Origin: Flavobacteriaceae bacterium PS02337
GTDB taxonomy: Bacteria; Bacteroidota; Bacteroidia; Flavobacteriales; Flavobacteriaceae
Direction: 5' to 3'
Length of the DNA: 64,000 nucleotides
NCBI GenBank assembly: GCA_029959285.1
Contig: JASCOE010000014.1
Coordinates: 61,986 to 125,985 of the forward strand
Part shown: positions 1,583 to 8,541 of the stretch, piece by piece
Position numbering within the stretch: position 1 is the stretch's first letter
Layout of the letters: every line of letters begins with the position of its first letter
Notes under the pieces: generated by a model
The model's database searches: none
What the model was told of the DNA's origin: nothing
Seen by the model: the letters and a program-made list of their open reading frames with translations, nothing else
Program-made: the position numbers and the translations under genes

Positions 1583-2572
1583 ATGAAAAAAATAATACTA
1601 GGTTTTGCTTTGTTTCTTGCAGCCGTTCAAACTCAGGCGCAGGAAAATAACTTGCAATTAAAAGGGACGGTTGTAGATACTGTTGCACAATATGTTTATT
1701 TGCAAAAATTTCACAATAAAATGTTTACCACAATTGATTCGGTAAAAGTAAAAGACGGAAGTTTTGCTTTTAAAACTAAAATAAAAACGCCAGAATTATA
1801 CGGTTTAAGTGTAAATACAGCAGATTCTCCGTTGTATATTTTTCTAGAAAAAGGACCAATTACCGTTAAATTAAGTCCAAAAAAATACTATACAAATTCT
1901 ACAGTTGAAGGTTCTGCAACACAAGATTTATTTGAAACGTACAAAAAAACAAAAGATGTAGAAATAAGCCAATTCATTAAAGAACATCCAACATCAATTG
2001 TTTCGGCTTATGTTTTATACAGAAATTGGTCGTATCGATTAACGCCAGAACAGATTACGCAAAATATTGCTTTGCTAGATAAAAGTCTTCAAAATATCAC
2101 TTACGTGAAAGAACTAAAAGAACTGGCTATTGTACTAGACGGTTTAGCGGTTGGAAAAAAAGCCCCTGATTTTACAGCAAATAATCCTGAAGGAAAACCA
2201 GTTCATTTTTCTGAAAACTTAAAAGGATACACTTTAGTCGATTTTTGGGCTTCTTGGTGCGGTCCATGCCGAAGAGAAAACCCGAATATTGTGGCCGCTT
2301 ACAAAGAATTTCATGATAAAGGATTTAATATAATCGCCATTTCTTTAGACAAAAAGAAAGAAAACTGGATTAAAGGAATTCAAGATGACAATTTGACTTG
2401 GACACACGTTTCAGATTTACTTTTCTGGAATAGTGCCGTTGCAAAATTATATGGCGTGCGAGCAATTCCTGCAAATTATCTGGTAGATTCTAAAGGAATT
2501 ATTGTAGCAAGAAATCTTCATGGAGAAGAATTGCAAGCTACACTTAAATCGCTTTTAGAAAATAAAATTTAA
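1583..2572 (+). CDS. TlpA-like thiol-disulfide oxidoreductase (DUF4369 + thioredoxin fold)
   Basis: A 329-residue exported protein. Residues 1-19 are a signal peptide (MKKIILGFALFLAAVQTQAQ). Residues about 25-110 form a beta-rich DUF4369-type domain. Residues about 190-325 form an AhpC/TSA-TlpA thioredoxin domain with the redox motif WCGPC (C226 and C229) and a cis-proline region (AIPANYLV). It should reduce or exchange disulfides in the periplasm. It is the first long gene after the SAM riboswitch, so its expression is probably tied to methionine/SAM status, which suggests a role in thiol chemistry of sulfur uptake; that is inference. Confidence 0.88.
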   Translation: MKKIILGFALFLAAVQTQAQENNLQLKGTVVDTVAQYVYLQKFHNKMFTTIDSVKVKDGSFAFKTKIKTPELYGLSVNTADSPLYIFLEKGPITVKLSPKKYYTNSTVEGSATQDLFETYKKTKDVEISQFIKEHPTSIVSAYVLYRNWSYRLTPEQITQNIALLDKSLQNITYVKELKELAIVLDGLAVGKKAPDFTANNPEGKPVHFSENLKGYTLVDFWASWCGPCRRENPNIVAAYKEFHDKGFNIIAISLDKKKENWIKGIQDDNLTWTHVSDLLFWNSAVAKLYGVRAIPANYLVDSKGIIVARNLHGEELQATLKSLLENKI

Positions 2573-2587
2573 TAACACACACACACA

Positions 2588-2728
2588 CAATCTTGTCATC
2601 CTGACGAAGGAAGGATCTTCACAAGAAACTCTACACAGAAAATCACCAATCTTTGTCGATTTTGCAACGAAGATTTGCTTCGCCCGTTCGCTATCGCTCG
2701 GGTCTCGTTCCTCGGAATGACAAGATTG
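2588..2728. repeat. intergenic inverted-repeat element
   Basis: CAATCTTGTCATcC at the left is mirrored by GGaATGACAAGATTG at the right. The interior is GC-richer, with motifs such as GACGAAGGAAGGATC and GTTCCTCGG. It fits the dispersed palindromic intergenic repeats common in Flavobacterium genomes. A short (AC)n run (about 2575-2588) abuts its left end. It lies between two genes of the sulfur region and may form a large RNA stem that changes the ratio of their expression. Confidence 0.6.
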
Positions 2729-2777
2729 CGGAAATTCAAACCATAATACAATTTGTTAATTTAAAAATGATAGGGAA

Positions 2778-4256
2778 ATGAATGCTATTGAGCCAACTAC
2801 AAAACCAACAGAATCTGAGTGTTACTTTTCTAAATTTAGAGAAAATGCAGTAGGAATTGATCATACTTTTGAATCGGTTTACGGAGAACAAAATTTGCTT
2901 TACGCAGATTGGGTTGCCAGCGGAAGATTATACGCGCCGATTGAAGATATTATGCTTCATAAAATTGGTCCGATGATTGCCAATACGCATTCACTTTCAA
3001 GTCAGACAGGAAAAACGTCTACTTACGCATACAATTACGCAAGAGATATTATTAAAAAATCGGTTAATGCCAATGAATCTGATGTTTTGGTGACAACAGG
3101 AACTGGAATGACTGCGGCATTATCTAAACTGCAGCGTATTATTGGTTTGAGAAAAACGTATGAAAATGAAAACGAAAAACCAGTAGTTTTTATCACGCAT
3201 ATGGAACATCATTCCAATCAAGTTCCGTGGTACGAGACAAATGCTGATGTTGTAATTCTTCCTGCTGATGAAAACAATTTAGTAGATCCTAAAATCCTTT
3301 CTACGGAAATAAAAAAATACGCCGATAGAAGTTTGAAAATTGGTTCGTTTACAGCATGTTCAAATGTAACGGGAATTATTACGCCTTATCATGAATTAGC
3401 TAAAATCATGCATCAAAACGGTGGATTATGCTTTGTCGATTTTGCAGCTTCGGCGCCTTACGTAAAAATCGACATGCATCCAAAAGATCCAGAAGAACAG
3501 TTAGATGCAATTTTCTTTTCGCCTCATAAATTTTTGGGCGGACCAGGAACTTGCGGTATTTTGGTCTTTAATGAAAAATTATACCAATCTGATTTTCCAG
3601 ATAATCCCGGCGGCGGAAATGTAAAATGGACCAATCCGTTAGGAAATTATTGTTACAGCGATGTAATAGAAGTGAGAGAAGATGGCGGAACTCCAGGATT
3701 TTTGCAAGTAATTCGAGCGGCTTTGGCTTTAGAACTAAAAGAAAAAATGGGAGTAGAGCAGATTGCAAAACGAGAAAAAGAACTTTTGGATCTTTGCTTT
3801 TCTAAACTTCAAAAAATACAAGGTCTTTCTATTTTGGGAGATTTAAAAAGCAAACGAATTGGCTGTGTTTCATTTGTAATTGAAGATATTCATTACAATT
3901 TGATTGTAAGATTATTAAATGACCGTTTCGGAATTCAGACTCGCGGCGGCTGGTCTTGCGCGAGTACATATGCGCATTATTTGTTCAATATTGATGAAAA
4001 ACGTTCGAGAGCAATTACCAATGAATTATTAGAGAAAAACCAAACCAATAAACCAGGTTGGGTTCGTTTGTCATTGCATCCGATAACGACAGATGAAGAA
4101 CTTTTATTTATTTGTAATGCGATTCAGCAAGTGGCTTTACATTATAAAAAATGGCAGAAAGATTATGAATACAATCCTGCAACAAACGAATTTGAAAATC
4201 CGAGAATAAAAGATACCATCGAAAGAGAAGTAAACGAATGGTTTGAGTTGGATTAA
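2778..4256 (+). CDS. class V aminotransferase, cysteine-desulfurase-like
   Basis: A 492-residue PLP enzyme of the NifS/SufS/Csd fold. The PLP lysine lies in FFSPHKFLGGPG. Pocket motifs seen are TGTGMTAAL, THMEHHSNQVPW and VDFAASAPYV. Near the C-terminus RGGWSCAS places a cysteine where desulfurases hold the persulfide. It is longer than SufS (about 400 residues) because of a C-terminal extension. Its place between a thioredoxin and an MDR reductase behind a SAM riboswitch suggests release of sulfur from a thiol or sulfur amino acid. The actual substrate is unknown, and Fe-S cluster assembly is not indicated by the neighbours. Confidence 0.82.
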   Translation: MNAIEPTTKPTESECYFSKFRENAVGIDHTFESVYGEQNLLYADWVASGRLYAPIEDIMLHKIGPMIANTHSLSSQTGKTSTYAYNYARDIIKKSVNANESDVLVTTGTGMTAALSKLQRIIGLRKTYENENEKPVVFITHMEHHSNQVPWYETNADVVILPADENNLVDPKILSTEIKKYADRSLKIGSFTACSNVTGIITPYHELAKIMHQNGGLCFVDFAASAPYVKIDMHPKDPEEQLDAIFFSPHKFLGGPGTCGILVFNEKLYQSDFPDNPGGGNVKWTNPLGNYCYSDVIEVREDGGTPGFLQVIRAALALELKEKMGVEQIAKREKELLDLCFSKLQKIQGLSILGDLKSKRIGCVSFVIEDIHYNLIVRLLNDRFGIQTRGGWSCASTYAHYLFNIDEKRSRAITNELLEKNQTNKPGWVRLSLHPITTDEELLFICNAIQQVALHYKKWQKDYEYNPATNEFENPRIKDTIEREVNEWFELD

Positions 4257-5272: not shown

Positions 5273-5739
5273 AAACAATACCAAGACGAGTAGTTACCGG
5301 AATCAAGAATGGAAAATCAATTATAGAACAAGATGAAATCGTTACCAATGTTTCGGAACATTTTCCGGGATTGATTATTTCAGATATTTGGTCAACAGAT
5401 AGTATTCCTGCAAAATTTGAAGAAAATAGAATAGAAAATACCGCTTTTCCGAATACGCCCAAAAATGGAAGTTATTTTCGTTACGTACAGATTCCGCCAG
5501 ACAAAGATTTAGGAATTGTGGCACCCGAAGGTCAACCTCACCCGTTGATGCATCAAACCGATACTTTAGATTATATCATTATTATTTCTGGAGAAATTTA
5601 TTTAATTGTAGATGAAGAAGAAACTATTTTGAAGGCTGGAGATATTGTAATTCAACGTGGTACCAATCATGCGTGGAGTAATCGTTCGGATTTGCCTTGC
5701 ATTCAATTGGCGATTTTATTAGATGCCAAAAATGATTAA
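5269..5739 (+). CDS. cupin-domain protein
   Basis: 156 residues with one cupin barrel (about residues 80-150). HQTDTLDYIIIISGEIYLIV gives the first cupin motif and GDIVIQRGTNHAWSN the second, including a metal-type histidine. Such small cupins are dioxygenases, isomerases or sensors. Translationally coupled to the MDR gene by an ATGA overlap. Function unknown; by context it belongs to the sulfur-related unit behind the SAM riboswitch. Confidence 0.8.
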   Translation: MKTIPRRVVTGIKNGKSIIEQDEIVTNVSEHFPGLIISDIWSTDSIPAKFEENRIENTAFPNTPKNGSYFRYVQIPPDKDLGIVAPEGQPHPLMHQTDTLDYIIIISGEIYLIVDEEETILKAGDIVIQRGTNHAWSNRSDLPCIQLAILLDAKND

Positions 5740-5800
5740 TGAAGTTGCAAACGATATAGTAGTCTATTAGATTGATAGGAAAATAAAAGTTTTAATAGTT

Positions 5801-5835
5801 TTTGCATTAAAATTGAAAATAACTGCTTAAATTTG
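5801..5835 (+). promoter_or_regulatory. promoter of the metNIQ leader
   Basis: TTTG (5801-5804) and TAAATTTG (5828-5835) match the Bacteroidetes promoter with a 23-bp spacer. Transcription would begin about 5841-5843, placing the leader-peptide ATG (5844) within a few bases of the 5' end, so the leader mRNA may be essentially leaderless. Confidence 0.6.
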
Positions 5836-5843
5836 CAATCGCA

Positions 5844-5939
5844 ATGAGAAAAAACGACCAGAATATGAAGAATTATTATAACAGCGCTATGATGTGCTGT
5901 ATTGTTGTAATGCAATTCTTTGAACTGGCTTCTATATAA
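5844..5939 (+). CDS. Met/Cys-rich leader peptide of the metNIQ attenuator
   Basis: A 31-codon ORF, too short for usual gene finders. It contains two consecutive ATG codons followed by TGC TGT (5889-5900; Met-Met-Cys-Cys) and a further ATG at 5910. It ends with TAA just before a terminator hairpin and upstream of the methionine importer genes. This is the layout of amino-acid attenuator leaders (as in trpL or hisL): scarcity of charged Met- or Cys-tRNA would stall the ribosome on the control codons. The peptide itself probably has no function. Confidence 0.7.
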   Translation: MRKNDQNMKNYYNSAMMCCIVVMQFFELASI

Positions 5940-5996
5940 AACTATATTATTTATCTCAAAAAGCCTTTCATAAATAGTTGAAAGGCTTTTTGTTTT
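5921..5996 (+). promoter_or_regulatory. transcription attenuator (antiterminator/terminator pair) before metN
   Basis: The terminator is a perfect 13-bp stem, AAAAAGCCTTTCA (5958-5970) / TGAAAGGCTTTTT (5979-5991), followed by GTTTT. The end of the leader ORF, TGAACTGGCTT (5921-5931), can pair with AAGCCTTTCA (5961-5970), with TGAA and GGCTT paired around a small internal loop, and would destroy the terminator. A ribosome stalled at the Met-Met-Cys-Cys codons leaves this segment free (antitermination). One that reaches the stop codon (5937) covers it (termination). Confidence 0.7.
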
Positions 5997-6011
5997 AACC
6001 TTGATTACGAA

Positions 6012-7043
6012 ATGATTGAATTAAAAAATGTAACCAAAACTTTTCATCAGAAAGACAGAATTGTTACTGCTTTATCTGATGTCTCGCTACGAGTTCCGCC
6101 AGGAAAAGTTTTTGGTGTAATTGGAACTTCGGGCGCGGGAAAAAGTACTTTAATCCGTTGTGTGAATTTGTTGGAAAGACCAACTTCAGGAGAAATTATT
6201 GTCGATGGAAAAGAGTTGATGCAATTATCAAACGCACAATTGGCAATTGAAAGAAGGCAAATCGGAATGATTTTTCAGCATTTCAATTTACTTTCTTCTA
6301 GAACCGTTTTCGAAAATGTAGCTTTTCCGCTTGAATTGGCAGGAACTTCAAAAACAGAAATAAAAACCAGAGTTTTAGAATTATTGCAATTGGTTGGTTT
6401 GGCAGAAAAGGCAAACGATTATCCTGCAAGTCTTTCTGGAGGTCAAAAACAAAGAGTGGCGATTGCGAGAACTTTGGCTAATAATCCGAAAGTATTGTTA
6501 TGCGACGAAGCGACAAGTGCTTTAGATCCAGCGACTACGCGTTCGATTTTAAATTTATTGAAAGACATTAACAAACGATTAAATATCACGGTTTTGTTGA
6601 TTACACACCAAATGGAAGTTGTAAAATCGATTTGTGATGAAGTTGCCGTTATCAGCCACGGAAAATTGATTGAACAGGGAAGCGTTGGTGAAATCTTCGC
6701 TGATCCGAAACAGGAATTGACGAGAGAATTTATTTCTTCTTCTTTGCATATTGAAGTTCCATCGGTTTATCAAGATAAGTTACAACAAGTCGATAATGGA
6801 AATTTGAATCCGTTATTGAAATTAGAAATGACTGGAAAATCAGTTAACGAGCCTGTTATTTCAGAAGTTTCGAGACTTTTTGATACCGATTTCAAAATCG
6901 TAAGCGCACAAATGGATCAGGCGGGAGAAGTAAATTTTGGTGTAATGCTGATTGAACTTTCAGGAAAACGCGAAAATTATGATGCGGCGATTCAATATTT
7001 TAATTCAAAACACATTAAAACAGAAATAATAGGTTATGTCTGA
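6012..7043 (+). CDS. metN: methionine ABC transporter ATP-binding protein MetN
   Basis: A 343-residue ABC ATPase that powers import of methionine. It shows Walker [11 protein letters not shown]-loop FQHFNLLS, signature [14 protein letters not shown] and Walker [13 protein letters not shown]. The C-terminal roughly 80 residues form the NIL regulatory domain, which in E. coli MetN binds methionine and inhibits transport. It is the first gene after the attenuator and overlaps metI by 8 bp. Peripheral protein on the cytoplasmic side of the MetI dimer. Confidence 0.95.
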
Positions 7044-7689
7044 TTCACTTATAGATTTATTGTTAAAAGGAACATGGGAAACCATTGTTATGACTTTTGT
7101 ATCGGGCTTTTTTGGTTTTGTATTGGGATTGCCAACAGGAATTTTACTTTTTCTGACACGTAAAAATCAAATTTTAGAACAGCCAGTTTTAAACCGAGTT
7201 TTATCGGTTTTGGTAAATGTTTTCCGTTCCATTCCATTCATTATTTTAATCGTTTGGATGATTCCGTTTACACGCGCGATTGTTGGAACTTCGATTGGAG
7301 TTAGTGCGGCTTTAGTGCCATTAAGTATTGGTGCAGCGCCGTTTATTGCCCGTTTGGTAGAAAATAGTTTGTTGAGTCTTACTTCAGGTTTGATCGAAGC
7401 GGCGAGAGCTTTGGGCGCAACGCCGTTACAAATTGTGTATAAAGTTTTGCTTCCAGAAGCGTTGCCTTCTTTAATTAACGCAGCGTCAATTACGCTAATT
7501 ACACTTGTAGGTTATTCTGCAATGGGCGGAGCAGTTGGAGCGGGAGGTTTAGGACAAGTTGGATATCAATATGGATATATTGGTTATGATGCCGTTACGA
7601 TGAATTCCGTTTTAGGTTTATTGGTTGTTTTGGTATTCTTTATTCAATTTATAGGAGACAGATTATCAAAACGATTCGACCATAGATAA
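7036..7689 (+). CDS. metI: methionine ABC transporter permease MetI
   Basis: 217 residues, about five transmembrane segments, BPD_transp_1 fold. The EAA-type coupling loop is visible ([27 protein letters not shown]), contacting MetN. The length matches the family (about 217). It overlaps the metN end and precedes metQ by 39 bp, so the three form one transcription unit under the upstream attenuator. Confidence 0.95.
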
Positions 7690-7728: not shown

Positions 7729-8541
7729 ATGAAACTAAATATTTTAAAAACTGCTGTAGTTTTGGCTTTGGCACTTGTTTTGTCAAATTGCGGAAAAGAT
7801 AAAAAAAACGATCCGCATTTTATTAAAGTTGGAGTGGCAGCCGGACCAGAATTAAAAGTGGCAGAAGCTGCTAAAAAAGTTGCGAAAGAAAAATTCGGAT
7901 TGGAAGTAGAATTGGTATCGTTTAACGATTATGTGATTCCAAATGAAGCTTTAAGTCAAGGCGATATCGATGCAAATGCTTTTCAGCACAAACCATACAT
8001 GGACGAGCAATCGAAACAACGTGGTTATAAATTAGCGATTATCGGAAAAACATTTGTTTATCCAATTGCGGGTTATTCAAAAAAAATAAAAAATCTTTCT
8101 GAATTGAAAAACGAAAGCACGATTATTATTCCAAATGACCCAACAAACGGCGGACGTTCTTTATTGCTTTTACAAAAAAATGGTTTGTTGAAATTGAAAG
8201 ATGGAGTTGGTTTATTGCCAAAAGTAACGGACATTGTAAGTAATCCTAAAAACTTAAAAATCTTAGAATTAGAAGCGCCTCAATTGCCTAGAGCTTTAGA
8301 CGATGCAAATGTTTCAATCGCGATTATCAATAATACATTTGCTTCTCAAGCAGGATTAGTTCCTTCTCGCGATGCATTATTTGTTGAAGATAAAGAATCT
8401 CCATATGTAAATTTGGTTGTAAGTCGTGAAGACAATAAAAATGAAGAAAAAGTAAAACAGTTTTTGCAAGCTTTTCAATCTCCAGAAGTAGAAAAAGCTG
8501 CCGAAGTAGAATTTAAAGGCGGAGCTGTAAAAGGCTGGTAA
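7729..8541 (+). CDS. metQ: methionine-binding lipoprotein MetQ
   Basis: 270 residues of the NlpA/MetQ family. The signal peptide ends in a lipobox-like LVLSNC, so the mature protein is anchored through Cys22. The body carries family features such as KVGVAAGPELKVAE, ALSQGDIDANAFQHKPY and a near-C-terminal substrate-binding region (NTFASQAGL). It captures methionine in the periplasm and delivers it to MetNI. A terminator follows 18 bp after the stop. Confidence 0.94.
   Translation: MKLNILKTAVVLALALVLSNCGKDKKNDPHFIKVGVAAGPELKVAEAAKKVAKEKFGLEVELVSFNDYVIPNEALSQGDIDANAFQHKPYMDEQSKQRGYKLAIIGKTFVYPIAGYSKKIKNLSELKNESTIIIPNDPTNGGRSLLLLQKNGLLKLKDGVGLLPKVTDIVSNPKNLKILELEAPQLPRALDDANVSIAIINNTFASQAGLVPSRDALFVEDKESPYVNLVVSREDNKNEEKVKQFLQAFQSPEVEKAAEVEFKGGAVKGW

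Follow-up and report, generated by a model that had tools for sequence, protein, structure and literature searches.

Analysis of the 64,000-nucleotide stretch of DNA considered here (the window) and of related genomes suggests that its metNIQ operon is very probably preceded by a ribosome-mediated transcription attenuator of the trp/his type, with sulfur amino acids as its signal. Leaders that differ in sequence and share this design appear to precede metY in Flavobacterium, and the metN and metY leaders together look like a sulfur-amino-acid attenuation system. Such an arrangement is familiar chiefly from other amino acids and from other bacteria. Direct support for it comes from the anatomy of the leader, its conservation, constraint at the RNA level, double changes in one lineage and recurrence at a second locus, all read from sequence. 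The locus is organized as follows, in window coordinates:

5761-5779, + strand: imperfect inverted repeat AGTCTATTAGATTGATAGG, upstream of the promoter
5828-5835, + strand: promoter box TAAATTTG; the form TTAAATTTGC is found in 48/48 Flavobacterium upstream regions (47 distinct)
5844-5939, + strand: leader-peptide ORF of 31 codons, sequence MRKNDQNMKNYYNSAMMCCIVVMQFFELASI, probably nearly leaderless
5858-5861, + strand: segment 1, CCAG at the ORF start, which pairs with CUGG (5925-5928)
5889-5900, + strand: putative sensor codons Met-Met-Cys-Cys, ATG ATG TGC TGT
5921-5931, + strand: segment 2, antiterminator strand TGAACTGGCTT, whose partner is AAGCCTTTCA of the terminator left arm
5957-5992, + strand: intrinsic terminator, with segment 3 at 5957-5970, loop at 5971-5978 and segment 4 at 5979-5992, then TTTT
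6012-7043, + strand: metN, methionine ABC transporter ATPase with NIL domain (TIGR02314, 546 bits, cut-off 499.7; PF09383)
7036-7689, + strand: metI, permease (NF008049, 380 bits, cut-off 212)
7729-8541, + strand: metQ, substrate-binding lipoprotein (NF008285, 429 bits, cut-off 374)

The terminator hairpin has 14 bp and an 8-nt loop, with a computed energy of -19.3 kcal/mol, and its 3' end lies 19 nt from the metN ATG at 6012, or 15 nt counting the TTTT. An initial annotation of this DNA had described the 31-codon ORF and its ATG ATG TGC TGT at 5889-5900, both of them exactly, together with a 13-bp terminator at 5958-5991, which is real and is lengthened to 14 bp by an outer C-G pair. It had also proposed that 5921-5931 pairs with the terminator left arm, and folding with the RNA exposed from 5905 on gives -6.2 kcal/mol for the TGAACTGGCTT:AAGCCTTTCA pairing. 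The box TAAATTTG is presumably a Bacteroidota-type -7 promoter box; the distance from TTAAATTTGC to the ATG is identical across all 48 Flavobacterium regions, and transcription would start a few nucleotides 5' of the leader ATG.

From this arrangement we infer translation of the ORF, ribosome stalling, termination and the identity of the signal. If charged Cys- and/or Met-tRNA were scarce, a ribosome would stall at 5889-5900 and part segment 1 from segment 2; the freed segment 2 would pair with segment 3 ahead of the synthesis of segment 4, and the polymerase would read into metNIQ. With both amino acids plentiful, a ribosome at the stop codon would cover segment 2 and the terminator would form. 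On RNA carrying no ribosome, segment 1 would sequester segment 2, and transcription would also stop. One consequence of the model counts against it: when methionine is short, initiation at the ATG of the leader itself should be slowed too.

To assess conservation, we located metN at E<=1e-95 in 51 of 300 Flavobacterium genomes. The 43 loci with 90-100%-identical metN carry 42 distinct leaders, and the TTAAATTTGC box, the ORF and the terminator are present in all 43, with the ORF beginning 17 nt from the start of the box. One named genome (L006) and 4/4 genomes from a search of the order bring the total to 47 distinct Flavobacterium leaders with metN at least 90% identical, and the promoter, Met/Cys leader and terminator occur in this order in 47/47. 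One of these is degenerate: G184 retains only one Cys and one later Met, falls under the Met/Cys threshold of the finder and is outside the 46 leaders counted below. The remaining 8 of the 51 loci (54-74% identity) have no such leader, nor do the divergent Flavobacterium loci G422 and G476 from the order search; in the order as a whole, 14 metN loci of greater divergence are without this layout.

The initial annotation had expected Met/Cys codons conserved among drifting neighbors in relatives, with covarying stems. In an alignment of the 43 leaders (A1) the Met/Cys core is retained, with codons inserted in L006 (MAMCC) and G083 (MMMCC), lost in G114 (ICC) and G075 (NCC), and changed in G015 (MMCR); all 46 Flavobacterium metN leaders passing the finder have at least two adjacent Met/Cys codons. 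Around this core the neighboring codons vary, as do the lengths of the ORF and of the linker and the place of the stop, and the alternative pairing persists. It covaries in the Chryseobacterium-type lineage described below, and in Flavobacterium metN no covariation of it was seen. The geometry of trp/his attenuation proposed for metNIQ is thus largely supported by conservation, by the Met/Cys codons and by the alternative pairing in relatives, and attenuation of this type accounts for every part of the locus.

These comparisons bear on three other readings of the locus. A cupin gene ending at 5739 is co-oriented with the metN leader, and the hairpin could in principle be its ordinary terminator, with a chance ORF nearby. 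We regard this as having next to no probability and rejected it, as a conserved promoter box lies in between in 48/48 regions, and the arrangement persists where the upstream sequence differs among relatives and the spacing from terminator to metN varies from 17 to 162 nt. A conserved small protein was likewise discarded, since stops and lengths shift and the lineages have only Met/Cys in common. The Flavobacterium peptide is partly conserved in its N-terminal part (M-K/R-N/K-x-x-Q-N..YY), as might be expected of a nascent peptide of the TnaC/ErmCL kind that arrests the ribosome on sensing free Met, Cys or SAM in the tunnel. That conservation coincides with RNA segment 1, however, codons are gained and lost beside the sensor codons within the genus, and between lineages nothing common was seen except Met/Cys; arrest by the peptide itself therefore seems to us very unlikely.

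The attenuator reading also makes demands on the RNA. All 46 Flavobacterium metN leaders retain the GGCT of segment 2, and the stop codon lies before it in 11/46, which implies that the constraint acts on the RNA and not on the peptide alone. The successive pairs of GGCUU (5927-5931) with AAGCC are formed in 40, 40, 40, 39 and 37 of 40 distinct rows; the helix hardly varies, and covariation therefore neither supports nor refutes this pairing. CCAG:CUGG is paired in 97.7% of cells across 43 leaders, compared with 1.7-50% for slid controls, and its covariation score was matched by 31/500 shuffles. As a third element, it gives the leader a 1:2/2:3/3:4 arrangement. The terminator is paired in 96.6% of cells in the relatives. 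Two further helices were considered and rejected: an extension of the antiterminator into the terminator loop (ATTCA:TGAAT) was convincing in single sequences and failed permutation, and a hairpin around the MMCC codons (CARCA..UGYUG) was palindromic in many rows with shifts of register and was not counted.

Folding of the Flavobacterium metN leader in each ribosome state is broadly consistent with this arrangement. With no ribosome the 5' part of the ORF holds the ORF-end region with 17.1 expected pairs, and 2:3 has just 3.8; a ribosome stalled on the sensor codons brings 2:3 to 12.5, although the two values are differently defined, the stalled state counting all exposed RNA upstream of the terminator. 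With the ribosome at the stop codon the terminator fraction is 0.97. At equilibrium on the complete RNA the terminator still reaches 0.96 with the ribosome stalled (0.90-0.97 in the other groups of leaders described below), which indicates that the switch must be kinetic. Expected 2:3 pairs go from 9.6 in the ribosome-free to 11.2 in the stalled state in g34, from 8.4 to 11.4 in g70 and from 8.1 to 12.8 in metY; the ribosome-free state clearly blocks 2:3 in Flavobacterium metN only.

The order search covered 395 genomes, 59 of them with metN, and one genus, g34, contributed 39 metN loci. We identify g34 as probably Chryseobacterium, because G660 and C. taiwanense L057 have the same leader peptide. 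At 17 g34 loci metN has its own promoter box, a different Met/Cys leader (typically MMMYCCMP) and a terminator in 17/17. At the other 22, another open frame ends 12-23 nt before metN; a functional leader would then be expected upstream of this inserted gene, and there it was found in 15/15 of those loci examined. The finder gave leader and terminator in 14 of these, the terminator of G602 being broken by one mismatch. Overall, the leader is present in 32/32 g34 loci examined. The core is reduced to MMKDxCMP in 6/15 leaders before the inserted gene. Core variants in the genus comprise MMMYCCM, MMMCNCM, MMMQCCM and MMKDICM (L201, L204, L282-L284 and others); the spacing of the Cys codons drifts, and the Met-Pro that follows is mostly retained.

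The g34 antiterminator is formed by GUGGU, at the end of the ORF, and ACCAC, close to the top of the terminator. In G316, G382 and G419 both sides are altered, to GGAGU and ACUCC; the terminator-side substitutions fall within the loop of the common form. Over 30 distinct rows, 87.3% of cells are paired and two pairs are changed on both sides, a count matched by 49/500 shuffles and derived from one clade (2 distinct of the 30 rows). The 4 changed cells and the covariation score in these rows were each matched by 0/500 shuffles; in a 17-row version the covariation score and changed cells were matched by 0 and 2 of 500. The helix slid by -3 is 80.7% paired, with a covariation of 0.160 vs 0.109 and no double change. 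The g34 terminator is paired in 99.4% of cells.

Another genus, g70, represented by 5 genomes, carries a conserved terminator preceded by short ORFs with VVCC, FVCC or MFCCC; 4/5 passed the finder, and G374, with 2 Met/Cys codons, was excluded. No antiterminator was found in g70, and no leader was seen in the 4 genomes of genera g60, g92 and g106. A Met/Cys codon cluster in a short ORF, and an intrinsic terminator between this ORF and the structural gene, are thus found as expected of an attenuator. An exclusive antiterminator that a ribosome at the stop codon would mask was found with the exception of g70, and the 1:2 pairing that would release the terminator in untranslated RNA in Flavobacterium metN only.

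The design recurs at a second locus. The 12-base pattern ATGATGTGYTGY has a single other site in the same genome, and this is a leader, MKAIAKRNMMCCKMMQNCIPHCCCQK, whose terminator is followed by a 63-aa ORF and metY (TIGR01326). The 63-aa ORF (L002:1635-1823), between leader terminator and metY, matches neither Pfam nor NCBIfam. Farther along the cluster come a homoserine dehydrogenase-like gene, a SAM riboswitch (L003:10157-10264), a metX-like gene, an aspartokinase/homoserine dehydrogenase-like gene and a second Cys/Met-metabolism gene, names which, except for metY and the riboswitch, were assigned by inspection.

At E<=1e-140, metY was found in 25/46 Flavobacterium genomes with 26 matches. 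We scanned 20 of the 26 upstream regions; the start codons of the other six (G008, G013, G005, G020, G018 and G041) were missed by the start-codon pattern. A leader with at least 3 Met/Cys codons and a terminator was present in 18/20, one of them weak: G025, with 3/17 codons Met/Cys (p=0.20). The two others are G030b, whose start was wrongly placed, and G019, with a Met/Cys-rich ORF and no terminator by the finder. Tandem leader/terminator units precede metY in 8 of the 20 regions, as in G040, which reads MNLTICNMCCMMWKFPQRTFIA, terminator, MNVIAKNMMSCMMMHMMMCCIGICYYQKRKT, terminator, metY. In G010 and G044 the first unit contains 4 and 3 Met/Cys codons, respectively. In the tandem loci (L222, L225, L226, L228, L229, L230, L236 and L237) the two units in series differ in peptide and in terminator. 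The ORF-end segment of metY leaders tends to track the terminator arm (CGCAGAG:CUCUGC; GUGGG:CCCAC in G010 and G044; CCAAAAG:CUUUUGG), and CCGCAGAG is read in either of two frames (PQR or SAE), depending on the species. SAM-II riboswitch matches lie near the metY leaders at L003, L222, L225, L226, L230 and L231 on the strand opposite metY, which suggests a divergent gene under SAM-II control.

For this sequence alone, 6 of 30 codons in the leader ORF are Met/Cys, and the best count in shuffles averages 1.68 (p=0.015); the comparative data are far stronger than this single-sequence statistic. A scan of both strands of the 64 kb for a short ORF with at least 4 Met/Cys codons and a strong terminator (score at least 18) gave this ORF as the sole match, and the same scan of 90,270 bases of loci from its own genome, chosen by the pattern TGYTGYTGY, gave 1 weaker match. 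As a leader finder TGYTGYTGY was abandoned, being far too common (1023 matches in the genome). The pattern ATGATGTGYTGY, searched in 121 Flavobacterium genomes, was also rejected: most of 30 loci inspected were not leaders, with 2/30 (L087 and L113) being metY leaders, and its matches usually exceed the reversed control among the matches listed, counts that were not summed.

Met and Cys make up 22.0% of post-start leader residues in Flavobacterium metN, 21.7% in g34 metN, 26.2% in g70 metN and 32.1% in metY, and content exceeds shuffles at p<0.05 in 21/22 representatives, G025 being the exception. Mean complementarity between ORF end and terminator arm is -10.3 kcal/mol in Flavobacterium metN vs -7.6 in dinucleotide shuffles, and -12.1 vs -7.9 and -12.3 vs -7.1 kcal/mol in the other two main groups. 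Individually, p<0.05 was reached in 13/46 Flavobacterium metN, 7/17 g34, 0/4 g70 and 15/26 metY leaders. In a search starting 40 nt upstream of the ORF, the best complementary window falls between -25 and +18 of the stop in 45/46, 17/17, 2/4 and 25/26 respectively, position counts that carry no shuffled control. Rows inside each group are related, so these tests are not independent; the complementarity, position and composition statistics leave out the 15 later g34 leaders, and two finder hits judged spurious (FN_G159.1 and FY_G017.1) were excluded from all later counts.

The leader RNA is strongly structured, its folding beating all 200 shuffles (z-score -4.49), which might be expected if the terminator and antiterminator responded to a bound protein or ligand, as in an unknown riboswitch, with the ORF incidental. 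At gathering score, no Rfam family (riboswitches, T-box, known leaders) matches 5740-6020, and the leader sequences differ by lineage, with recurring Met/Cys codons at 22-32% of residues; we accordingly give this explanation very little weight beside translation-dependent attenuation. The sole gathering-score match in the whole window is the SAM riboswitch at 1242-1341, which the initial annotation had noted upstream. It is followed by thioredoxin-like (DUF4369) and cysteine-desulfurase-like aminotransferase genes (1583-4256), and not by a classic met gene.

The signal sensed by the attenuator may be cysteine, methionine or both. In Flavobacterium metN the Cys codons outlast the Met codons, so that the term methionine attenuator may be too narrow. 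The same attenuator might respond to Cys alone, or to sulfur through Cys-tRNA, with the Met codons secondary. CC is present in 41/46 Flavobacterium metN peptides vs MM in 34, MM is lost and CC retained in G114, G075 and G245, and the g70 peptides have CC in 4/4 and MM in 0/4. On the other hand, MM is found in 16/16 distinct g34 and 23/25 distinct metY peptides, with CC in 13/16 and 16/25, and the genes controlled serve methionine. Sensing of Cys alone is thus a tenable but less probable variant of the attenuator. The initial annotation had described the scheme for methionine import; with the metY leaders, the design extends beyond metNIQ.

Methionine genes are usually under the control of SAM riboswitches, T-boxes or MetJ. 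The trp, his and ilv attenuators of Proteobacteria likewise switch between terminator and antiterminator, and the end product is abundant in their leader peptides. The ilvB1 leader of M. tuberculosis follows the same logic and is also rich in the end product (PMC13236596); all of these differ from the metN leader in amino acid and phylum. The closest precedent is metL, a leader peptide (MSTTSDRTPATEATTTPGARCMCRRMCAF) predicted before metNIQ in Streptomyces lividans TK24 (PMC8079986). It precedes the same operon and is leaderless, with a C-terminal CMCRRMC run; unlike the leader described here, it has no typical Rho-independent terminator, and its authors point to Met and Thr. Its host belongs to another phylum, and the passages on metL in that paper contain no comparative set. 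Short ORFs with Cys codons before cysteine genes are also described in Actinobacteria (PMC1262725), and in mycobacteria these include leaderless polycysteine ORFs (Canestrari 2020, via PMC13236596). The actinobacterial cys leaders have no obvious terminators according to the relevant section (PMC1262725), the mycobacterial control is termed translational (PMC13236596), and the passages on these leaders do not mention Met codons (PMC1262725, PMC13236596).

Within the genus, 'strong clues' for attenuation have been noted upstream of amino-acid biosynthesis operons of Flavobacterium psychrophilum (PMC9723704). The passages on this point name no Met/Cys leader, and the main text has 'methionine' 0 times; overlap with the structured 5' regions of its supplement (Table S7) is possible. 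In a literature search with subscription papers and supplements outside its scope, no Met/Cys attenuator in Bacteroidota was recognized among the matches listed. The tandem attenuators of Salmonella mgtCBR are similar in having two short ORFs per leader, but the passage describing them concerns genes for Mg2+ transport and virulence (PMC3641672). The SAM riboswitch RF00162 also controls methionine genes, but binds SAM directly; it is present at 1242-1341 and in the metY-metX cluster, with no gathering-score match in 5740-6020.

We lean, with some reserve, towards a sulfur-amino-acid regulon in Flavobacteriales in which attenuation would read Met and Cys codons jointly, beside SAM riboswitches and with tandem gates at metY. 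A Met/Cys ribosome sensor before metN and metY, also in tandem, would extend attenuation to sulfur amino acids in Bacteroidota. If this is correct, translating a leader peptide can serve to sense the initiator amino acid, methionine; in Flavobacterium metN that translation probably begins almost at the 5' end of the mRNA. This raises the questions of how Met-initiated translation senses a shortage of Met, and how work is divided within one gene cluster between tRNA charging, read by the leaders, and SAM, read by the riboswitches.

The imperfect repeat AGTCTATTAGATTGATAGG at 5761-5779 occurs as CTAY..GATAG in 47/48 Flavobacterium upstream regions. It is possibly the operator of some regulator, which may add a further layer of control over metN, at initiation. 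A perfect repeat, AGTCTA-N9-TAGACT, lies upstream of metN in L063 (Chryseobacterium) and L010 (Pedobacter), and half of this repeat lies upstream of metN in L009 (Dyadobacter).
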